From positions 1 through 34,844 of the forward strand of contig CAJAHV010000171.1 in NCBI GenBank assembly GCA_903939555.1: DNA of 34,844 nucleotides. The letters are read 5' to 3'. Below the pieces are notes generated by a model, which was given only the letters and a program-made list of their open reading frames with translations, was not told the DNA's origin and did no database searches. The stretch comes from an uncultured Alphaproteobacteria bacterium. Its GTDB lineage: Bacteria > Pseudomonadota > Alphaproteobacteria > Sphingomonadales > Sphingomonadaceae. The position numbers and the translations under genes were made by a program. Below are positions 401 to 16,806 of the stretch, in pieces; the first letter of the stretch is position 1; the number at the start of each line of letters is the position of its first letter.

Positions 401-429
401 CGGCGCTGGTCAGCGATAGACCAGCGCCG
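401..429. terminator. Perfect 11-bp hairpin between convergent metK and monooxygenase gene
   Basis: CGGCGCTGGTC, a 7-base loop AGCGATA, then GACCAGCGCCG form a perfect 11-bp stem. It sits 7 bases after the metK stop and overlaps the last codons of the convergent gene. Neither side has a run of T, so it may be a bidirectional terminator of the stem-only type or an mRNA 3'-end stabiliser. Confidence 0.6.
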
Positions 430-1894
430 AATCACTCAGGTCGATGGTCGGGAACTCTTTCTTTTCGGTCCCGTAATCCTGACTATGGCGCCATTCGTGT
501 TTTGATCCGGCGCGCGGCAACAAGTGCATGCCGCGCTGCAGATAGCCGCTGTTCATGTTGTCGGCATCGATCCACGGGCCCAATGTCATATCGACATCTT
601 CGGGGCGCAGCGCCGGCACCACCGATGTCAAACCCTTGGCATCCATGTGGTTGAGCAGGCGACAGACGAAATCGGCAACCAGATCGGCACGCAGCGTCCA
701 GCTGGCGCGGAAATAGCCAAACACCCAGACCATGTTGGGTACGCCGGTGAACATCATGCCGCGCCACGTTACGGTCTGGCTGAAATCGAGCGGCTGGCCA
801 TCGATCCGAAAGGCGATATCGCCCAAGGGACTCAGGTTGAAGCCTGTTGCCGCGACGATCAGGTCGGCTTCCAGCGTCTCGCCCGACTTCAGCACAATCC
901 CGCCGGCGATGAAATGGTCGATCTCGCCGGTGACCACGCTGGCCTTGCCGGCACAGATTCCGGCGAACAGATCGCCATCGGGCACGAATGCCAGCCGCTG
1001 TCGCCACGGCCGGTACTGCGGCGTGAAATGGCGCATGTCATAGCCCTCGGGCAGCAGCACACGCACGCCTTCGATCAGCTCGGCGGCGACAAGGTCGGGC
1101 TCTTCATAACTGCGCCGGGTGATCTCGGCCTGTGCGAAATTGCGCTCGCGCCGGGCGATGTCATGGATGATCGCGTCATCGACTTCGAGCAGCCGCAGCT
1201 TGTCGACAAGTTCATTGGCATTGAGCCCCGGCATGAAATAGGTCGGTGAGCGTTGCAGCATGGTGACATGTGCTGCCGTGCCCGCCATCGCCGGCACAAT
1301 TGTCGCCGCCGTCGCGCCCGAACCGATGACGACGACGCGCTTGCCGGTGTAATCAAGCTCTTCGGACCATTCCTCACTATGGACGATCTGTCCCTTGAAA
1401 TCCGACATGCCCGGCCATTCGGGCATATACCCCTGATGATGACGGTAATAGCCTTGACACATCCACAGGAAGCCGGCGGTGAAATACCGGGCGTCGCCGG
1501 TATCGGTGCGCACCGCAGTGATCGTCCAGCGCTTTGCCTCGCTCGACCATTCGGCGTTGGTAATACGGTGGCCGTAGCGGATGTGTCGACCGAGATCATT
1601 CTCGTCGATCACCTCGCCAAGATAGGACTGGATTTCAGCTGCGGTGGCGATGGGCGGGCCCACCCAGGGCTTGAAGCGATAGCCGAAGGTATACAGATCA
1701 CTGTCAGACCGGATGCCGGGGAATGTGTGGGTCAGCCACGTGCCGCCATAGCTGCCCTCGGCCTCCAGCACGACAAAACTGGTCCCGTGGCGCTGATCGC
1801 GCAAGTGCCAGGCGCCACCAATCCCTGAAATGCCGGCGCCGACGATCAGAACGTCGAAATGCTCGCTGGCTCTGTTCTCGCTGGCACCTGCCAT
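410..1894 (-). CDS. Flavin-containing (Baeyer-Villiger type) monooxygenase
   Basis: Predicted FAD- and NADPH-dependent monooxygenase, cytoplasmic, inserting one oxygen atom of O2 into a ketone or heteroatom substrate. The substrate cannot be read from the sequence. The 494-residue product has an N-terminal FAD-binding GAGISG (about residues 19-24), the FMO/BVMO fingerprint F-x-G-x3-H-x3-W (FKGQIVHSEEW, about 166-176), and a second Rossmann motif GSGATA (about 191-196). The EthA-like layout and length suit this family. I prefer the ATG at 1894 to the track start at 2011: GGAGAGG lies just upstream, and the FAD motif then sits at the normal distance from the N terminus. It lies between metK and trmB, facing both, with its own promoter region and a perfect FNR-type box about 60 bases upstream. 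Confidence 0.9.
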   Translation of the reverse strand: MAGASENRASEHFDVLIVGAGISGIGGAWHLRDQRHGTSFVVLEAEGSYGGTWLTHTFPGIRSDSDLYTFGYRFKPWVGPPIATAAEIQSYLGEVIDENDLGRHIRYGHRITNAEWSSEAKRWTITAVRTDTGDARYFTAGFLWMCQGYYRHHQGYMPEWPGMSDFKGQIVHSEEWSEELDYTGKRVVVIGSGATAATIVPAMAGTAAHVTMLQRSPTYFMPGLNANELVDKLRLLEVDDAIIHDIARRERNFAQAEITRRSYEEPDLVAAELIEGVRVLLPEGYDMRHFTPQYRPWRQRLAFVPDGDLFAGICAGKASVVTGEIDHFIAGGIVLKSGETLEADLIVAATGFNLSPLGDIAFRIDGQPLDFSQTVTWRGMMFTGVPNMVWVFGYFRASWTLRADLVADFVCRLLNHMDAKGLTSVVPALRPEDVDMTLGPWIDADNMNSGYLQRGMHLLPRAGSKHEWRHSQDYGTEKKEFPTIDLSDSALVYR

Positions 1895-1949
1895 GGCAGT
1901 CCTCTCCCCATGCTTTCGGGCAATGCTGGCACGCTCTGGCAGCATGTCG

Positions 1950-2010: not shown

Positions 2011-2697
2011 ATGATGCCCGATCCCGCCTCCATCCGCCGGCTCTATGGCCGCCGCACCGGCCACAAGTTGCGCATCGGCCAGGCCGCGCTGGTCGAAGAC
2101 CTGCTGCCCCAGCTCGCCGTACCGGAAACCGGGCCGCTTGATGCCGCCTGCCTGTTCGGCAATGACCGGCCGCTGTGGCTGGAGATCGGCTTTGGCCGCG
2201 GCGAGCACATGGCGGCGCAGGCGGCGGCCAACCCGAATGTCGGTATCATCGGCGCCGAGCCTTTCCTCGACGGCGTGGTCGGCGCCCTGCTCGAAGTGCG
2301 CGATCGCGGACTGACCAATATTCGCCTGCACAATGGCGATGCGCTCGACGTGCTCGACCGCCTGCCCGATGCAAGCCTCGACCGGGTATTCCTGCTGCAC
2401 CCCGACCCGTGGCCCAAGGCGCGCCATGCCAAGCGGCGCTTCGCCAACCCGGGGCCGCTGGCGATCATCGCCCGTGTGCTGAAACCGGGCGGCGAGTTTC
2501 GGCTTGGTACCGACCACCCAGTCTATTGCCGTTGGGCAATGCTGCAAATGGCACAGTCACCCGATTTCGACTGGCTTGTCGAAAGTCCGGTCGATTTCCA
2601 GGTTCGTCCTGATGACTGGCCGCAGACCCGGTACGAAGCCAAGGCAAGGCGCCTTGGCCATGAAGTCTGGTACTTCCGCTATCGGCGGCGTGACTGA
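2011..2697 (+). CDS. trmB: tRNA (guanine-N7-)-methyltransferase
   Basis: Methylates N7 of G46 in the variable loop of tRNAs, using SAM. The 228-residue product has the SAM-binding LEIGFGRGEHM motif (about residues 55-65), the GAEPF segment, and the TrmB signature HPDPWPKARHAKRRF. The length is normal. The start is one of two adjacent ATGs (2011 or 2014), preceded by AAGG. In many alphaproteobacteria trmB follows metK directly. Here the two are separated by the inverted monooxygenase gene, so trmB presumably needs its own promoter in the shared divergent gap. Confidence 0.95.
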   Translation: MMPDPASIRRLYGRRTGHKLRIGQAALVEDLLPQLAVPETGPLDAACLFGNDRPLWLEIGFGRGEHMAAQAAANPNVGIIGAEPFLDGVVGALLEVRDRGLTNIRLHNGDALDVLDRLPDASLDRVFLLHPDPWPKARHAKRRFANPGPLAIIARVLKPGGEFRLGTDHPVYCRWAMLQMAQSPDFDWLVESPVDFQVRPDDWPQTRYEAKARRLGHEVWYFRYRRRD

Positions 2698-8357: not shown

Positions 8358-8866
8358 GCGCTCCGTCATAGGGAGCCGCCGAACTGTCCGTGCTGCTGGA
8401 ACGGACCGCCGATGACGACAGCTAAATATCTGAATTATATTACCAACATGCATCTGTATAAATTTTCGGCATCGTGCTGCCCACGTTGACCGAACGCACC
8501 AACGCGGAAGATATTTTTTCAGCAGGTTTATGTGACAATCTGGCGGGAGGCGGCGGAGTTTGGCCCGGCTCGCGCCATCCCCGCAACATGGACGGCAAAG
8601 CGCTGCACTCGCGATGCTGGTCCGTGGCGAGGAGGGCCCATCGCGCAGCCTAGAGGCGTGTGCGCGGGCTCAAAAAATGGCTCCGGATATGGCCGCCCGT
8701 CACACCGGGGAGCGCAAGCAAGAACCAGCGCCAGGACTTTCGCGTTTGCAAATAACCAATGGCGAGCAGTGATTGTGACGACACCCAAGCGGGGTCGGTT
8801 GATCATTAACAGCAAAACGATACTTTACGAAAACAGACAATTGTCTCGATCATCTTAGCGCCCACG
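8358..8866. other. Gene-poor, partly AT-rich gap after mlaF
   Basis: About 500 bases without a convincing gene. Bases 8410-8475 are unusually AT-rich for this GC-rich window (for example AAATATCTGAATTATATTACC). ORFs at 8532-8858 (+), 8560-8772 (+) and 8528-8815 (-) have no recognisable protein pattern and overlap each other. A 12-bp perfect palindrome AGACAATTGTCT lies at 8835-8846. The stretch could be a decayed gene, a regulatory region or imported DNA. Confidence 0.5.
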
Positions 8867-8904
8867 AAAACGGCCGACGCGTCCTATTGAGGACACGCCG
8901 GCCG
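8867..8904 (-). terminator. Rho-independent terminator of the SWIB operon
   Basis: The minus strand reads a 14-bp stem around TCAATA followed by TTTT. On this strand the stem pairs throughout, with two G-U wobbles. On the plus strand the same positions are A-C mismatches. The structure is therefore oriented for the minus-strand transcript that ends the SWIB gene 34 bases earlier. Confidence 0.85.
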
Positions 8905-8937
8905 ATTTGTTCACACCGAATAAGAATCCGGCGACGT

Positions 8938-9210
8938 TTACTTCAGGTGGCGAGCAAGATGCTTGTTCATTTCGAACATCGAACACTCATCCACACCGAA
9001 AACCTTCTTCAGGTTGGCATCGGCGACGATCTGGCGCTTGTCAGTCGGCTTTTGCAGGTCATGCTTCTTGATGTATTCCCACACCTTGCTGACGACCTGA
9101 CCGCGTGGCAGCTGGTCTTTGCCGACGATTACGGCGAGTTCGGCCGACGGCGTCAGCGGCTTCTGCAATGCATCGATCTTCTTGCCCGCGGGCTTGGCTG
9201 CTTCTGCCAT
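8938..9210 (-). CDS. SWIB/MDM2 domain protein
   Basis: A 90-residue protein that is almost entirely one SWIB (BAF60b) domain: LTPSAELAVIVGKDQLPRGQVVSKVWEYIKKHDLQKPTDKRQIVADANLKKVFGVDECSMFEMNKHLARHL. In eukaryotes such domains occur in chromatin remodellers and MDM2. In bacteria they stand alone or fused to topoisomerase in Chlamydia, and their role in alphaproteobacteria is not settled. A lysine-rich N-terminal tail (AAKPAGKK) might touch nucleic acid (inference). It is the last gene of a three-gene minus-strand run with a methyltransferase and a small helical protein, and has its own strong terminator. Confidence 0.92.
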   Translation of the reverse strand: MAEAAKPAGKKIDALQKPLTPSAELAVIVGKDQLPRGQVVSKVWEYIKKHDLQKPTDKRQIVADANLKKVFGVDECSMFEMNKHLARHLK

Positions 9211-9287
9211 AGGTCTCCCCTTTCATACGCACTTGACGCCGTCCGACGTGGCGGCACCTTCTTTGCTATCTCCTTGCTTAACCGAAC

Positions 9288-9650
9288 TTAGCCGTCACGC
9301 AACTGTCTCGATACGTCTTCGATCGAAGATTCGTTCATTTCGAGACTTTCCATGTCCTGTTGGACGCCCCGCAGGATGCGTGCGGCGAATTCTCGATGCA
9401 TAAGGCCGCGTTCATGGCCGGCGGCGCGGTCGGGCGCAAAGGCTTCGATATCAGCGCGGGTGATGCTGCCCTTGGCATCGAGCAGGCGTTCGACGGTGTC
9501 GAGGCGTTCCTTCACCACCGCGACTTCGCCAGCCAGCGCCATGACGATCGACAGGATACGGTCGCTCGCCGGGTCCTCGAGATATTTCGGGCGGGCGCCT
9601 TTGGCGCGAGCACCGGCGCGGGCGATCCAGTCGATGGTTTCGGCAGTCAT
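9288..9650 (-). CDS. Small helical hypothetical protein, coupled to the methyltransferase
   Basis: A 120-residue, charged, mostly helical protein. The segment ASDRILSIVMALAGEVAVVKERLDTVERLL (about residues 28-57) has heptad-like hydrophobic spacing and may form a coiled coil. No signal peptide or membrane segment is seen. Its ATG overlaps the methyltransferase stop by four bases (ATGA), so the two are probably made together and may interact. I do not recognise a named family. Confidence 0.75.
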   Translation of the reverse strand: MTAETIDWIARAGARAKGARPKYLEDPASDRILSIVMALAGEVAVVKERLDTVERLLDAKGSITRADIEAFAPDRAAGHERGLMHREFAARILRGVQQDMESLEMNESSIEDVSRQLRDG

Positions 9651-10873
9651 TCCGCGGCCTCCCGCAATTCGGCGCGATTCTTCCAGGCGCCATAGGCATG
9701 CCAGACGGCAGCGCGGCCGAAATCCTCGGCCTCGCCCTCCACCGAGGGGGGGAATACCGTGGCGTCGACGACGGCGCGGACCTTCGCCTCAAACTGGTCA
9801 GCGCGCGGCAGGCCGGCGGTTTCGAGCACGTCGTGCATGTCGAAGGCGTGCATCGCCGACCAGAAGGGTTCGTTGTTGTTGAAGGCATCCCAGTCGCGCA
9901 TGAACTGTTCGAACAGCGGCATATCGGCGGTATATTGCGGCTGTTCGAGATGAAGCATCAATCCGCCCGGCGCCAGCACACGCGCGCCCTCGGCGATAAT
10001 GCGCGGCAGGGATTGACCAGATGTTTCATGCAGGAACATCGTCGTCTGCACCCAGTCGAAATAACCATCGGGGAAGCGCGACAGGTCTTCGGCATCGGCC
10101 TGAACGAAGCGGATGTTGTCGACCCCCAGCGAGCGCGCCCGGGCATGGCCGTAGCGCAGGACGGGCGCGGCGGTATCGATGGCGATGACCTCGCAATCGG
10201 GGAAGGCCTGCGCCAGCGGCACAGCGCTGTGGCCGACGGTGACACCGATATCGAGAATGCGGCGCGGCTGCCAGCCGGGGCGGGTTTCCCTTGCCCATTT
10301 CGCCAGCGCCTGGCCACCGCCATCCGACAGCGCACCCATGCCGCCGCCGGTGGTAACGAAGATCCCACAATCGTAATTGGCACCCGCCGAAACGTCACCG
10401 GGGCGCTCCTCCCCATGATAACTGCCAGGCATGCAATGGATATCGACGGCTTTTTGGTAGCGCGGGATGGTGATGGCCGGATCGAGTTCCAGCCCGTCAC
10501 CATTGCCGCTGGCGGCGCGGGCGCGGGCATCGAGATCGTCCAACTGACGCAGTACGATTGAGCGGCCGTTCTGTTGGCGCATTTCCATGTTATTGCGTTT
10601 CAGCGCCGACCAGAAACGGTGGTACGGATCGGCATTCATGGCGCGGCGCACCTCGAAACGGTCCTGGGGCTCGCGGTCATGCTCGGCGATGAACTTGGGC
10701 AGGGCGCGGCGTTCATAGGCCAGCTTGTTGCCCGGGCCGAGCGTGCCGGCGACATGCTTGTTGAGGTTGGCGAGAAAGTTGAAGCGCGCGCGCTCATCAT
10801 GCGAGGCGTGCGGGAAGACACCGTGTTTTCCGACGGCGCTGTACGGCGGCGGAATATCGTCATGAATAGCCAT
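9647..10873 (-). CDS. Class I SAM-dependent methyltransferase, unknown substrate
   Basis: A 408-residue protein with a roughly 190-residue N-terminal region of unknown function followed by a Rossmann methyltransferase domain. Motif I is ILDIGVTVGHSAVPLA (the usual GxGxG is GVTVG), motif II is EVIAIDTA, then VQADAEDLSRFPDGYFDWVQTTMFLHE and a motif-III-like ARVLAPGGLMLHLEQPQY, all as in Methyltransf_11/25 proteins. The C-terminal ~100 residues are rich in aromatic residues. It leads an operon with the small helical protein and SWIB. A perfect FNR-type box and a -10-like TATTAT lie upstream, so expression may follow oxygen. The substrate cannot be inferred. Confidence 0.85.
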   Translation of the reverse strand: MAIHDDIPPPYSAVGKHGVFPHASHDERARFNFLANLNKHVAGTLGPGNKLAYERRALPKFIAEHDREPQDRFEVRRAMNADPYHRFWSALKRNNMEMRQQNGRSIVLRQLDDLDARARAASGNGDGLELDPAITIPRYQKAVDIHCMPGSYHGEERPGDVSAGANYDCGIFVTTGGGMGALSDGGGQALAKWARETRPGWQPRRILDIGVTVGHSAVPLAQAFPDCEVIAIDTAAPVLRYGHARARSLGVDNIRFVQADAEDLSRFPDGYFDWVQTTMFLHETSGQSLPRIIAEGARVLAPGGLMLHLEQPQYTADMPLFEQFMRDWDAFNNNEPFWSAMHAFDMHDVLETAGLPRADQFEAKVRAVVDATVFPPSVEGEAEDFGRAAVWHAYGAWKNRAELREAAE

Positions 10874-10966: not shown

Positions 10967-11608
10967 TCATCCTGCATCGCTCAATCGAGCAATTACCTGT
11001 TCCTGCCCGCGCTTGAAATGGTCGCGATCAGGAATGACCGCAGCGTGGTCGTCGATAAGGGAGTTGGCAGGCTGCTCCTGCCCGGCGTAGGCGGCGAACA
11101 ACTCGAGGCGCTGACGCGACAGATAGTTCGTCATCCCCGGCTTGCGGTTTGCGCGGCGGAGGGCGGCGAACTCCAGATCGGCAAAGGCAGTAAAAGTTTC
11201 ACCACTGTTCGATTCGGCCAGAACATTGCCTTTCCAGTCGATGATCGCTGAATTGCCATCGGCCGAGGCAAGCGGCATCGGTGTACCGCTGATACCAGCG
11301 GTATTCGCGCTGACGACATATCCAAGGTTTTCGATGGCGCGGGCGCGGCGAACAATTTGCTTGTGGGTCGGATTGGGCGAGCCGATCTCCGACGAGCACT
11401 GCACGAAAACTTGTGCACCACGCAGCGCCAGAGCCGGAGCGATTTCGAGGTAGAGAATTTCTTCCGAAGCGATTGCCGCCGAGCGCCCAATCTCGGTGTT
11501 GGCCACTGGGAAAACACCGTCGAGGCCGTAAATGTCGAGGTATTTTGAGCAGACTTCATGAGGCGTCGACTGCATGGCGACAGCAGCGTACAATGAAGGA
11601 TTGGTCAA
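10967..11608 (-). pseudogene. Nitrilase-superfamily hydrolase, N-terminally truncated
   Basis: A 213-residue C-terminal piece of a carbon-nitrogen hydrolase, against ~300-340 residues for intact members. Recognisable parts are YGLDGVFPVANTEIGRSAAIASEEILYLEIAPALALRGAQVFV and RARAIENLGYVVSANTAGISG, then a C-terminal PGMTNYLSRQRLELF. The N-terminal part carrying the catalytic Glu and Lys is absent. At the position of the nucleophilic Cys the sequence reads IASEE. I believe some family members naturally lack the Cys here, but cannot confirm it. The only start in phase with the MFS stop is TTG 11608 (TTGA overlap). The frame stays open, with plausible residues (FFGAGALTNPSLY), into the 3' end of the MFS gene, as expected of a deletion joint. 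Confidence 0.65.
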
Positions 11609-12837
11609 TGCTCCGGCGCCGAAAAATCGGGGTAGCGGCCAAGCGTCAGCGGCAACAGCGCCCCAAGTGCGAACAACCCGATGGCAACAGCGAGCATTGC
11701 ATCATAGTTGCCAGTCGCATCGCGCACGGCGCCGTAAATGGCGGGCGAAACCGCAGATCCGATGCCGAAGGGCATATAGAGCAAGCCATAGATCTTGCCG
11801 TAATGCGCCATGCCGAAATATCGCCCCGCCAGATAGGCAATCAGGTCGCTTTCGGCACCGGCGGCAAAGCCCAGCAGCAGTGCGCCAGCCATCAGGTTGC
11901 TGATCGGGCCTCCTGTACCCATCAAAAGCCAGCACGACAGCGCCGGCGACAACAGGATCGGCACCAGCACCGCCGGTGCCCAGAAACGATCGAACAGGAG
12001 CCCGGTAATGACACGGCCGGCGAGGATGCCGACAGCCATGACGCTCATCACCGTCGCTCCCTGCGCCGCTGAAAAACCATGCAGGCCGACAATCTGGATC
12101 ATGTTTATGAACACCCCGCCATAGGCCAGCGCCACCAGCGCGATCGACAGCCAGATCACCCAGAGCCGGTAACCACGCACCGCCTGACCCACCGTCAGTC
12201 CGGTCAGATTGCCTTGCGCATCGCTGATGCCCGCCGGGCGTTCAGCAACAGTCGGCTCGCGAAACAGCCATAATGACAGCGGTGTAGCAACCAGCAGTGG
12301 TAGCAGCGCGAGGGTGGGAAAGACGACGCGCCAGCCGCTGCCAAACAGCTTGCCGTCGATTGCTGCCTGCGCCAATTGCGGCACAATGATGCCGGCGAGG
12401 CTGGTACCAAGCAGCATGATCCCGAGCGCGAGACCACGACTCTTGAGGAACCACATGTTGATTGCCCGGCTCCAGGTAACCGGCGTCGAGCCAATGGCGA
12501 CAAGGCCCACCAATGCCCAAAGTCCGTACCAGGCCAGCAGCGACGGCGGCATCAAGGCGAAAAGCGCAAAAGTAAGCGAAAATCCGACCAGCGAGGCGAT
12601 GGCGATCCGGCGCACCCCCCAGCGGTCACTGGCCCAGCCGTAGACGGGCGCCAAGAGAGAGGCGACGATCCCTAACAGCGTAATGCCAAGGCTGATCTGT
12701 AGAAAGCTCCAGCCGAGTTCGGCATGAATGGGTCCGATTATGGCGGGCAAGACGTTGAACGGCAACGGCGACGCCCCGCAACCCACGCCGATCATCGCGG
12801 CGAACAGGACGCGGCGGCCGTTACGAAATTCGGACAT
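11605..12837 (-). CDS. Major facilitator superfamily transporter
   Basis: A 410-residue inner-membrane transporter with about 12 hydrophobic segments. It shows the MFS loop 2-3 signature GWASDRWGVRRIA (about residues 66-78) and GRVITGLLFDRF in the second half. The overall type (monocarboxylate/OFA-like, with RAINMWFLKSRGLALGIMLLGTSLAG) suggests an organic acid or similar anion, but the substrate is unknown. I prefer ATG 12837 (MSEFRNGRRVLF) to the track start at 12909, because AAGGG lies 8 bases upstream. It adjoins the TonB receptor and the nitrilase fragment on the same strand, perhaps the remains of an uptake and breakdown cluster. Confidence 0.85.
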   Translation of the reverse strand: MSEFRNGRRVLFAAMIGVGCGASPLPFNVLPAIIGPIHAELGWSFLQISLGITLLGIVASLLAPVYGWASDRWGVRRIAIASLVGFSLTFALFALMPPSLLAWYGLWALVGLVAIGSTPVTWSRAINMWFLKSRGLALGIMLLGTSLAGIIVPQLAQAAIDGKLFGSGWRVVFPTLALLPLLVATPLSLWLFREPTVAERPAGISDAQGNLTGLTVGQAVRGYRLWVIWLSIALVALAYGGVFINMIQIVGLHGFSAAQGATVMSVMAVGILAGRVITGLLFDRFWAPAVLVPILLSPALSCWLLMGTGGPISNLMAGALLLGFAAGAESDLIAYLAGRYFGMAHYGKIYGLLYMPFGIGSAVSPAIYGAVRDATGNYDAMLAVAIGLFALGALLPLTLGRYPDFSAPEH

Positions 12838-13082
12838 TAGTGCACCCTTGCGCTGCGAAGCGGAGCGGACTCGGCGCAGCCAAGCCGCCCAAGCGGCACG
12901 AAAGAGCACAAGGCGATCATGGCACCTCCGGCGCTAGGACGTCAGCAGGTTAGAAACAAGCCGTTAGGAATGGGCCTATGCCGGAACCGGACAGATCGGC
13001 ACGCAGGACACTGCGCCCTTTCTCTGACCGGTCTTGCGCCCGTCAGCGGGTATGCGCCGCGCTAAACGCGCGGCGCAATCTT
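12838..13082. other. Gap between MFS gene and TonB receptor, with a 10-bp hairpin
   Basis: No gene is supported. TGCGCCGCGC-TAAAC-GCGCGGCGCA (13053-13077) is a perfect 10-bp stem directly after the TonB receptor stop. A second small stem CCCG-TCAG-CGGG (13039-13050) follows on the minus strand. There is no T-run. These likely end or protect the receptor transcript. Confidence 0.5.
13053..13077 (-). terminator. Hairpin downstream of TonB-dependent receptor
   Basis: A perfect 10-bp GC-rich stem with a 5-base loop begins 6 bases after the receptor stop. No U-tract follows on the minus strand, so intrinsic termination is likely but not certain. Confidence 0.55.
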
Positions 13083-15647
13083 TCAAAACACCCGCTTTGC
13101 CCGGATCTGCCAAGTCCGCGGCGGATTGAGATAGTTGAAGTTGACAAGGCTGGATTGCGAGAACTGCTTGTCAAAACAGTTCTCGCATTCGAGACTCAGC
13201 GTCCAGTTATTGTCGTCCGTCCGCATCGTCAGTGCAGCGCTGACTTGCCAGAAACTTTCAGTCAACGAGCCCGCGATCACGTCGCCGCCGAACGGATTGG
13301 CCGGATAGATGACGCCACTCGGTGTGGCGATAGTGCCGGTGTAGATCGTGGCACCAGCGGTGCCGGTTTCCAGGCTGGCCCGGTACAGCGCGTTGACCGA
13401 CGGGGTCAGGATGACGCCGGCCGACGGAATGGCGAAGTCATAGGAACCGCCAAAGGCGATGCTGAAGTCCGGGGTTCGAACCGGGGTGGCGATGTTCCCA
13501 TTGGCATCGATGATGCCGGCGGCGCAATCCGGTGCGTTGTTGGCGCCCGCGCCCAGTGGCACCCGCTTGGCGGCAAGCTGCGCGAGGCAGTCGATCTGCT
13601 GCTTGCGCACCGACTTCACGCCATATTTGTTAGGCAGCAGCGTCTCGGAGACCTTGTACTTGTCGTCCTGGTAACCGGCATTGGCATAAAGCGTCAGGCC
13701 CTTGACCGGCACCGCGCTGATTTCGACTTCGAGACCCTTGTTCTGATAGTCGGCGAAATTCTGGGTGATGAAGGTCACCCCGCCGCTGACCGGATCGACG
13801 AACGCCGAAGGCGTCTGCAGATCCTTGGTTTCCAGCCAGAAACCGGTGACGTTCAGGCGCAGGCGGCGATTGAACCACTCGGTCTTGCCACCGACTTCAT
13901 AGCTCCACACCTTTTCCGGATCGAACGGCAGCAGCGTGTTCGGTGCCGAACCCCGGGCGTTCCAGCCGCCAGACTTGAAACCGCGCGTCGCACTTGCAAA
14001 GAACAGCATGTCGTTATTGGGTTTGTAATTGATGGCGAAACGCGGTGTCCAGATCTTGGTGCGCTGAGCCGTCGGGATCGCCAGTCGACCTGTCGGCAAA
14101 TCAACCGCCAGATTGGCTGTGGTGAGGCAAGTTGGCCGCGGCGTCGAGCACGTAGCGCGATTGTCGAAGATACTGATCGTCTTCTTTTCGTCAGTGTAGC
14201 GGATGCCACCGGTCAGCTTCAACTCGTCGGTGACGTTGAAATCAGCTTGGAAATAGCCGGCCTTGGCGGTCGCCGTATTGATCAGCGTGCGGTCGGCGAG
14301 CACCGCCGGAAAGCCGGTCGGGCCCGGAATGCCGAAAATCGGCCCGAGGTTGAAAACATCGGCAAAATCGGTGGTGTTGTTCTCATCGAAATAATAAAAA
14401 CCGGTGACGAATTCGACACGACCGTCGAGCACTTTACCATTCAGCTTGAGTTCCTGGGTGAACTGGTTGTGCTTGCCGTCATTGGTAATGACGAAGCCGC
14501 CGGTCGGATAACCATTGGCGACGGGGAAAGGGTTGGCGACGCTGGGCAGGCCGCGGCCATCGGCGAAATCGAGCAGATACTGCTGCTTGAGATTGATGAA
14601 GCCAGTGATGGCGTTGAGGGTAAAATCTTCGCCGAGCGCCAATTCGAGGTTCGACGTGTACATCTGAGTATCGGTTTTATTGCCGAGCCCGTAATTCGCC
14701 TTGCGCCCTGAAATACCCAGCGTGGAGAATGGAGTGGTCGTCCCGGGACCATATTTCGTGCGGATACCGGTCGAATTGAAACGACCGTTGCAGTTCGCCG
14801 GATTCAGAGGATCACAGTTGAAATTGATCAGGTTCTCGCCATCGTTGCGCATGTACGTGCCGGCAACATTCCAGGTCAGATTTTCGGTCAGCTTGAGTTG
14901 CAGCGCACCCCGCAGGCCAGCAAGATCGCTGTCATTGTTGCGTTCACCGGTCTTGGTGTTGATGGCATAGCCATCGTCATCCTGAAAATAACCAGAAATC
15001 TTTACCTGCACCATCTCGTTAAGCGGCAGGTCGATCGAACCGCGGATCAGTTTCTTGTCATAAGAACCATAGGCCGCTTCCAAGAATCCACCGAGCGTGT
15101 CAGAGGGACGCTTCATGATGACGTTGACGGCGCCGCCGGTGGTGTTGCGGCCGAACAGCGTGCCTTGCGGGCCGCGCAGCACCTCGATCCGGTCGAGATC
15201 GAAAAAGGCAAAGTTGTTGCCATTCTGGCGCGACATGTAGATGTCGTCGACATAGGTGCCGACCGGCGGATCGAAGGTGGCGATGGTTTCGGTATTACCG
15301 AGACCGCGGATGTAATAAGCGTTCGCTGAACCTAACCCGGTATTGTTCGATCCGAACAGATTTGGGACATACTGGATCAACTGAAGTGGCGTCGCGATGC
15401 CGCGCTGCGACAACAGATCAGCCGAAAAAGCGCTGACCGCGATCGGCACGTTCTGCGACGATTCCTTGCGGCGCTGAGCGGTGACGATGATGTCCGGCAA
15501 TAACTCGGAGTCATTGGTGACCGCCGCTGAAGCGCCTGTCGCTGTCTGCGCCAGCGCCGGGACACCGGGCAAAAGGCTACTGGCAATCGTCGCAGCAAGC
15601 AGGGCTGCGCGGCCGTCGCTACGGATATTACGTTTGGTCACCATCAT
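13083..15647 (-). CDS. TonB-dependent outer-membrane receptor
   Basis: Outer-membrane beta-barrel that takes up a large or scarce ligand using energy from TonB-ExbBD. The 854-residue product has a signal peptide (LLAATIASSLLPGVPALAQ), a TonB-box-like DIIVTAQRR near residue 52, and a plug domain with YIRGLG, DDIYMSRQ and RIEVLRGPQGTLFGRNTTGGAVNVI. A long barrel follows, ending ...TWQIRAKRVF with the terminal aromatic residue typical of barrel proteins. GGGGG lies 8 bases before the ATG at 15647. The subtype resembles sphingomonad receptors often tied to degradation of organic compounds. The ligand is unknown. Confidence 0.95.
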   Translation of the reverse strand: MMVTKRNIRSDGRAALLAATIASSLLPGVPALAQTATGASAAVTNDSELLPDIIVTAQRRKESSQNVPIAVSAFSADLLSQRGIATPLQLIQYVPNLFGSNNTGLGSANAYYIRGLGNTETIATFDPPVGTYVDDIYMSRQNGNNFAFFDLDRIEVLRGPQGTLFGRNTTGGAVNVIMKRPSDTLGGFLEAAYGSYDKKLIRGSIDLPLNEMVQVKISGYFQDDDGYAINTKTGERNNDSDLAGLRGALQLKLTENLTWNVAGTYMRNDGENLINFNCDPLNPANCNGRFNSTGIRTKYGPGTTTPFSTLGISGRKANYGLGNKTDTQMYTSNLELALGEDFTLNAITGFINLKQQYLLDFADGRGLPSVANPFPVANGYPTGGFVITNDGKHNQFTQELKLNGKVLDGRVEFVTGFYYFDENNTTDFADVFNLGPIFGIPGPTGFPAVLADRTLINTATAKAGYFQADFNVTDELKLTGGIRYTDEKKTISIFDNRATCSTPRPTCLTTANLAVDLPTGRLAIPTAQRTKIWTPRFAINYKPNNDMLFFASATRGFKSGGWNARGSAPNTLLPFDPEKVWSYEVGGKTEWFNRRLRLNVTGFWLETKDLQTPSAFVDPVSGGVTFITQNFADYQNKGLEVEISAVPVKGLTLYANAGYQDDKYKVSETLLPNKYGVKSVRKQQIDCLAQLAAKRVPLGAGANNAPDCAAGIIDANGNIATPVRTPDFSIAFGGSYDFAIPSAGVILTPSVNALYRASLETGTAGATIYTGTIATPSGVIYPANPFGGDVIAGSLTESFWQVSAALTMRTDDNNWTLSLECENCFDKQFSQSSLVNFNYLNPPRTWQIRAKRVF

Positions 15648-15826: not shown

Positions 15827-16141
15827 ATGCCTGAAGAACAGCCTCAATTCCCATGGCGCCAGGCTTTTCTGCTGGTCAGCGCGCGCGTTACAGATCAAGT
15901 GCTGATGGGTGGATATGCTCGCGCCCGCGCGTCGTCGGGGCTTTATGCCCGGCACGGCGGGCATACCCTGTTCGCCGGCAAGGCGGCGGTGCCGCTGGAG
16001 GATTGGCCGCACGAAACCAGCGTGGTCTGCGGGCGCTTTCCAGCCGAAGCCTTTTGGGCTGGTGCACATTGGCAGGACGACGTGATGCCGCTGCGAGCCG
16101 GTGCCGGTGACTTTCACATCGCGATTTTCGAGGATCTGTGA
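15827..16141 (+). CDS. DUF1330-like small protein
   Basis: A 104-residue cytoplasmic protein resembling DUF1330, a dimeric alpha/beta-barrel fold. It runs LLVSARVTDQVLMGGYARA, then a GLYARHGGHTLFAGKAAVPLEDW strand-turn, then HETSVVCGRFPAEAFWAGAHWQDDVMPLRAGAGDFHIAIFE, in the family's order. The function is not known. The stop (TGA) shares its last base with the ATG of the next gene, so the pair is coupled. The start region carries a 14-base direct repeat that includes the ATG. Confidence 0.65.
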   Translation: MPEEQPQFPWRQAFLLVSARVTDQVLMGGYARARASSGLYARHGGHTLFAGKAAVPLEDWPHETSVVCGRFPAEAFWAGAHWQDDVMPLRAGAGDFHIAIFEDL

Positions 16142-16806
16142 TGCTCTATGCGACGTTAGTCTATGCGCATCTGCTGTTGTTCGTGCTGTGGCTGGGAGGC
16201 GACCTTGGCGTTTTCGTTCTCGGCCAGCATTTTCGTATTCGCAGCTATTCGCTGGCCGAACGACTGACACTGCTCAAATTGCTTGTCGCCATCGATATGG
16301 GGCCGCGCTCGGCCTGGGCATTGATGGTGCCGATGTCGCTGACTTTGTTGTTTGTTGGCAATTGGTGGCCGGGGCTACCGCTGTGGGGCGTCGCTTCTGC
16401 TTGGGCAGTCGGGTTGTTCTGGCTATGGCTGGTCTGGGACGCGCACGCTCATGACCTCACACCGCGCGCGGCCCGAGACCGCCGCATCGAAGGCTGGCTG
16501 CGCTATGCGCTCACCGCCTTCTACCTTGGCCTTGGTGGGTCTTCACTGGCCGTCGGTGCACCATTGGCCGAACACTGGCTGGCGTTAAAGGCGTTGCTGT
16601 TCGGACTGATCTTCGCCGCTGCGATCATGATCGACCATGCCTTCAAGCCTGTCGGGGTACAGTTGATGGCGCTGATCAACCAAGGTTCATCGGATGCCAC
16701 CGAAATACCGTTACGTTCGACCATGGACGGCACGAGGCGCTGGGTATTCACCGTTTATGGCCTGCTGTTCGCCACGAGTTGGCTCGGATCGGTTAAGCCT
16801 TTTTAG
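16141..16806 (+). CDS. Multi-pass membrane protein (CopD-like)
   Basis: A 221-residue inner-membrane protein with about six hydrophobic segments: LVYAHLLLFVLWLGGDLGVFVLG, SAWALMVPMSLTLLFVGNWW, WAVGLFWLWLVW, YALTAFYLGLGGSSLAVG, ALKALLFGLIFAAAIMI and FTVYGLLFATSWLGSV. The first helix (YAHLLLFVLWLGG) with conserved His and Gly recalls CopD and related haem- or copper-associated membrane proteins. I cannot assign a function. The TGATG overlap with the DUF1330-like gene indicates co-translation. The track's GTG start (16138) adds one residue. Confidence 0.75.
   Translation: MLYATLVYAHLLLFVLWLGGDLGVFVLGQHFRIRSYSLAERLTLLKLLVAIDMGPRSAWALMVPMSLTLLFVGNWWPGLPLWGVASAWAVGLFWLWLVWDAHAHDLTPRAARDRRIEGWLRYALTAFYLGLGGSSLAVGAPLAEHWLALKALLFGLIFAAAIMIDHAFKPVGVQLMALINQGSSDATEIPLRSTMDGTRRWVFTVYGLLFATSWLGSVKPF

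Follow-up and report, generated by a model that had tools for sequence, protein, structure and literature searches.

The window, a stretch of 34,844 nucleotides from an uncultured Alphaproteobacteria bacterium of the Sphingomonadaceae, carries on one strand genes for a methyltransferase (MT), a small helical protein (HEL) and a SWIB-domain protein (SWIB), with further genes that belong to the same cassette as MT and HEL lying upstream (Table 1). Gene calls and sequence confirmed what a preliminary description of this DNA had given as the gene positions, the ATGA overlap between HEL and MT, the terminator downstream and the FNR box upstream. For this we used a codon-based gene caller, adopted after a long open reading frame from our first gene-calling method (c143 in locus L032) had been set aside as a probable antisense artefact. 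The membrane protein that diverges from the receptor gave no Pfam match above cut-off. At the other end of the locus, between an ABC ATPase gene and SWIB (8400-8870), no gene is called, and the broken frames present there resemble, by eye, the remnant of an ECF sigma factor.

Table 1. Genes and sequence elements of the locus, in coordinates of the window
Feature	Coordinates	Strand	Basis
Strong intrinsic terminator after SWIB	8871..8904	-	15-bp stem, 4-nt loop, T tail
SWIB, 90-aa stand-alone SWIB/MDM2-domain protein	8938..9210	-	PF02201, 98.9 bits
Promoter-like element of SWIB (TTGCGT ... GTTAAG)	9277..9302	-	Straddles HEL stop codon; first box in last HEL codons
HEL, 120-aa helical hairpin protein, dedicated partner family	9288..9650	-	ATGA overlap with MT, pairing, structure
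MT, 408-aa class I SAM-dependent methyltransferase, helical N-terminal domain at residues ~1-190	9647..10873	-	Methyltransf_25 (5e-18), AlphaFold, relatives
Exact FNR-type box TTGAT-N4-ATCAA, TTGATGCAAATCAA	10951..10964	.	78-91 nt before MT start codon
Carbon-nitrogen hydrolase of cassette	10967..11608	-	PF00795 match, profile 132-254 only; alignment with orthologues
MFS transporter of cassette	11605..12909	-	PF07690; same order in L156, L161, L163, L165, L037, L039, L049
TonB-dependent receptor of cassette	13083..15647	-	TonB-receptor-like sequence, conserved order
Membrane protein divergent from receptor	16138..16803	+	Cluster c21, five loci; upstream of cassette in sister genomes

Sequence and predicted structure of MT and HEL

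By sequence MT is a class I SAM-dependent methyltransferase, scoring 66.0 bits against PF13649 (cut-off 27), with the matched domain beginning at about residue 206. The preliminary description had spoken of an uncharacterised N-terminal region of ~190 residues, and this was borne out, as no family match precedes the domain. In the AlphaFold model (pLDDT 90, pTM 0.90) the N-terminal part is largely helical, with long helices at residues 25-65 and 83-109, and is followed by the Rossmann-like fold of class I methyltransferases, in which the SAM-binding motif positions I206, D208, G210 and G214 are conserved. Foldseek matched this model with a probability of 1.00 to many methyltransferases in the PDB; these are small-molecule enzymes, including RebM, CouO, Rv2258c and AtmM, matched with partial coverage and TM scores of 0.30-0.45 by query length. 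The best NCBIfam match was the corrinoid protein-associated methyltransferase CpaM (NF043040), which covers residues 165-307 only and at 50.5 bits falls far under the cut-off of 180, placing MT outside that family. Relatives of MT were found at 80 loci in Sphingomonadales, Gammaproteobacteria, Betaproteobacteria and Saprospiraceae, with 45-90% identity, nearly all of them aligned over their whole length. The fold model and the PDB matches fit an enzyme that would transfer a methyl group from SAM to a small molecule.

HEL gave no match to any Pfam or NCBIfam family, and a search of the HEL family against Pfam at a loose threshold returned scattered weak matches only. Its predicted structure (pLDDT 90) consists of two long helices, at residues 27-60 and 75-119, for which a Foldseek search of the PDB gave no significant match; likewise, a HEL profile found nothing significant among PDB sequences. 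Only R49 and E54 are invariant in the family. Two rows taken from plasmid records were left out of the structure work. A very weak resemblance to the N-terminal helices of nitrile hydratase alpha and beta subunits (4ob1, E 0.15; NHase_beta_N, 0.014 in 3/65 members) is not significant and serves as a lead only.

MT and HEL form a widespread two-gene unit

Pairing was surveyed in 121 genomes of the order Sphingomonadales, searching for MT and HEL separately to avoid sampling bias and counting genes within 300 bp as adjacent. An MT adjoins 39 of the 42 HEL genes, with HEL downstream in 32 cases, upstream in 3 and on the opposite strand in 4, which upholds the earlier proposal that the small helical protein is coupled to the methyltransferase. 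Conversely, a HEL accompanies 39/47 MTs, and among the others are several short fragments close to the ends of contigs. The 3.02-Mb genome from which the window comes encodes eight MTs and eight HELs, all of them paired. A HEL relative also lies beside almost all of the MT relatives found in the MT-led search, and the 4-nt overlap between the two genes recurs in 84 loci. Taxonomically the pairs extend over Alpha-, Beta- and Gammaproteobacteria and Saprospiraceae, and plasmids of Novosphingobium and Sphingomonas carry them as well. Since adjacency survives changes of both order and strand, a joint function is strongly indicated, and MT and HEL are a genuine, widespread two-gene unit. We found no description of the pair in the literature on DUF1838, HapK, strain JE1, bilin catabolism or SWIB in Sphingomonadales.

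In one paralogous group (G065, G089, G092 and G106) MT and HEL stand on opposite strands and so do not form an operon, with adjacency nonetheless kept. The distances between paralogues of MT and HEL within the window's own genome are weakly correlated (r 0.69, p 0.03, five pairs), while the correlation over all pairs (r 0.93) is confounded by shared ancestry.

Setting of the pair

The order TonB-dependent receptor, MFS transporter, carbon-nitrogen hydrolase, MT, HEL is found in the window and in four loci of the same genus (L156, L161, L163 and L165), and in part in L154. It recurs in other genera (L037, L039 and L049), where SWIB is not beside it. The receptor of the cassette shares pairwise identities of 48-61% with the receptor that lies beside SWIB in genomes lacking MT.

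Compared with its orthologues, the carbon-nitrogen hydrolase of the window is without ~130 residues of its N-terminal half, a shortening that could reflect either decay of the cassette in this genome or an assembly error. A cysteine present in L039, L049 and NOR5-3, probably the nitrilase cysteine, is an alanine in the window's genus. Together, the shortening and the replacement of cysteine by alanine suggest either decay or a putative non-hydrolytic role.

Elsewhere the neighbours of MT-HEL are mostly catabolic-looking, and include carbon-nitrogen hydrolases, PuuE- and AllB-like hydrolases, an amidase and isochorismatase, and further MmgE/PrpD, CoA-transferase III, glyoxalase-fold proteins, DUF1838, CpeT and HapK. 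Many of these enzymes are C-N hydrolases, but the set differs from pair to pair, and for this reason no single substrate fits MT-HEL. CpeT/CpcT-family proteins, a family known from phycobilin attachment in cyanobacteria, were seen near MT-HEL in non-cyanobacterial genomes (L077 at 1113-2114, L076 and G106:C3).

An FNR-type box upstream of MT

Exact FNR-type sites number eight in the 3.02-Mb genome, the MT box included, against none for the reversed control, and others of them precede HemN-like and CcoN-like genes (gene names read from the sequences). A gene for FNR, its name likewise read from the sequence, is present as well, and its product carries a cluster of cysteines at the N-terminus. 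Both features expected of a member of an FNR regulon are thus in place, an exact box upstream of MT and an FNR of the cysteine type. Within 250 nt upstream, 10/80 MT loci carry a box that is exact or has a single mismatch where 0.69 would be expected, several of these loci being inter-related. However, the box is absent in the five same-genus MT loci that we examined, and an oxygen-controlled common transcript therefore appears not to be conserved. Of the oxygen control that had been proposed for this locus, what stands is a plausible, local control of the window's MT by FnrL, as judged from sequence. A second exact box, at 1950-1963, lies between a divergent gene resembling FAD-dependent monooxygenases (413-1945, minus strand) and a gene at 2011-2694 (plus strand).

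Distribution and upstream element of SWIB

SWIB aligns with PF02201 over profile positions 1-74 (cut-off 25), and is thus a clear, full-length member of the SWIB/MDM2-domain family that consists of this single domain. In Chlamydia, SWIB is found at the C-terminus of TopA (PMC12445093). Among the 61 genomes sampled, SWIB occurs in 31/37 of the window's family, as a single copy in all but one, and in 0/24 of other families of the order. The exception, G006 (L153, L154 and L166; same contig match as Polymorphobacter multimanifer, L099), has three SWIB genes.

SWIB adjoins MT-HEL in six genomes only, all of one genus (G000, G004, G006, G007, G018 and G023). Of the family's remaining 25 genomes with SWIB, many lack an orthologous MT altogether, and others, among them G005, G008, G014, G015, G027, G030 and G036, carry both genes at separate places. 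A setting of MiaB-, PhoH-, YbeY- and CorC-like genes (names read from the sequences) surrounds SWIB in the MT-positive loci L156, L163 and L165 and in the MT-lacking L152, L158 and L162 alike, from which the window differs in having alanine racemase and Mla-type genes downstream.

Just upstream of SWIB, three MT-lacking loci retain sequences resembling the 3' end of HEL: L162 (59% over 37 aa, E 3e-11), L152 (4e-6) and L160 (1e-4). Because the C-terminal tail of HEL is conserved in other genera, these fragments are HEL remnants and not SWIB sequence that HEL had captured, and their presence in genomes without MT implies that the pair was lost while SWIB persisted. We had considered the locus to be a cassette inserted beside SWIB, and dropped this idea as the remnants mark genomes in which the pair was present and later lost. 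The present pattern of MT-HEL and SWIB would thus be, at least partly, one of loss.

The gap of 77 nt between HEL and SWIB holds part of a conserved promoter-like element, located at about -92 relative to SWIB. In its strict form (TTGC-G/A ... CTAAG, 83-93 nt before SWIB) this was present in 10/31 loci, MT-positive and MT-negative alike, and in 2/432 upstream regions of other genes; the pattern was drawn up after viewing the alignment and these counts are descriptive. Near-variants occur in the window (GTTAAG) and in L152 (CTAATC). We take the element to be a putative promoter of SWIB's own, which speaks against a dependence of SWIB on the MT promoter, and SWIB itself is, on our reading of these sequences, an independent neighbour outside the MT-HEL unit.

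Alternative explanations

The preliminary description had joined the three genes in a single oxygen-controlled system, a proposal that can be extended to a methyltransferase modifying chromatin or a topoisomerase by way of SWIB. The genes do share a strand, no terminator separates HEL from SWIB, adjacency is kept in six genomes and the FNR box is exact, but the neighbourhood survey suggested at the time found the three together only rarely: in 25/31 of the SWIB-bearing family genomes an orthologous MT is missing or far off, and nearly all other MT-HEL loci have no SWIB nearby. Furthermore, MT resembles small-molecule enzymes, SWIB's upstream element is shared with MT-lacking genomes, and the HEL remnants mark places where the pair was lost and SWIB kept. 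Co-occurrence largely refutes such a system, which we consider extremely improbable, and the tempting notion that bacteria have here a chromatin-like system built on a methyltransferase is set aside as unsupported. The role of HEL is open to a different reading, as a chaperone for MT or an adaptor to a membrane or another enzyme and not a structural subunit. Its small, highly helical form without an evident catalytic motif, in which R49 and E54 alone are invariant, would suit such a role, but that every paralogue is strictly matched with one partner is at least equally compatible with a stable subunit, and we regard a chaperone or adaptor as an unlikely though serious candidate.

As a special form of the explanation that we prefer, MT-HEL could be part of gene clusters that break down linear tetrapyrroles, tripyrroles or other imide/lactam N-heterocycles, with oxidation yielding maleimide-type rings that amidohydrolases then open. 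The neighbours that point this way are CpeT/CpcT-family proteins, HapK, PuuE-/AllB-like and other C-N hydrolases, arylmalonate decarboxylase/EutA-like proteins and MmgE/PrpD; CpeT is found in 7/13 HEL-bearing genomes against 3/108 others (p 3e-6) and DUF1838 in 11/13 against 15/108 (p 4e-7), although phylogeny is a confounder in both cases. Any one of these neighbour families appears in some clusters only, the window's genome has no CpeT, and other pairs have genes for a molybdo-hydroxylase, PhyH or an aldehyde dehydrogenase as neighbours; we consider this special form rather unlikely. In its boldest version, MT-HEL pairs would be an undescribed family of obligate two-subunit methyltransferases, multiplied within a 3-Mb genome to eight copies, whose methylation step makes the catabolism of pyrrole- or imide-type natural products possible and which FnrL switches on at low oxygen in some lineages, a picture that we think decidedly doubtful. 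Methylation of a nutrient would be unusual in a degradation cluster, and the fold of MT might have been re-used for decarboxylation, hydroxylation or pericyclic chemistry; the retained SAM-binding positions argue against this, and we hold a non-methylating reaction to be very unlikely.

Proposed function of MT-HEL and its relation to known systems

With moderate confidence, we read MT-HEL as an unnamed two-subunit small-molecule methyltransferase, or an enzyme with a dedicated partner, that is plausibly under FnrL control and ends a scavenging cassette, with SWIB as an independent neighbour. The TonB-dependent receptor and the MFS carrier would import an organic compound, and MT would methylate this compound or a breakdown product of it such that later enzymes can process it; the cassette would run in the catabolic direction. 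HEL may form a physical complex with MT, its two long helices packing on the long N-terminal helices of MT and so forming or stabilising the substrate site. FnrL would bind at the site just before MT and probably raise expression at low oxygen. SWIB would be expressed from its own promoter, if the upstream element acts as one, and end at its own terminator, while read-through from MT-HEL may happen but would be incidental.

The C-terminal domain of MT is alike in sequence and fold to class I small-molecule methyltransferases (Methyltransf_25/Methyltransf_11; RebM, CouO, AtmM and UbiE-like enzymes), from which MT is set apart by a helical N-terminal domain of its own, ~190 residues long and kept throughout its family, and by a separately encoded small partner. 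Two-component methyltransferases, in which a catalytic methyltransferase works with a small dedicated partner or activator, are known in the Trm112-dependent enzymes. MT-HEL may be likened to these, but differs in that HEL is a predicted helical hairpin with no fold match in the PDB, and in that the MT paralogues do not share one activator but come each with a separate partner gene.

The SWIB locus illustrates how the probable promoter of a neighbour, where it overlaps the last codons of a gene, can preserve this fragment after the rest of the gene is lost. MT-HEL, unnamed and widely distributed, recurs in many degradation clusters, and recognition of the unit could help to assign the substrates of these clusters.
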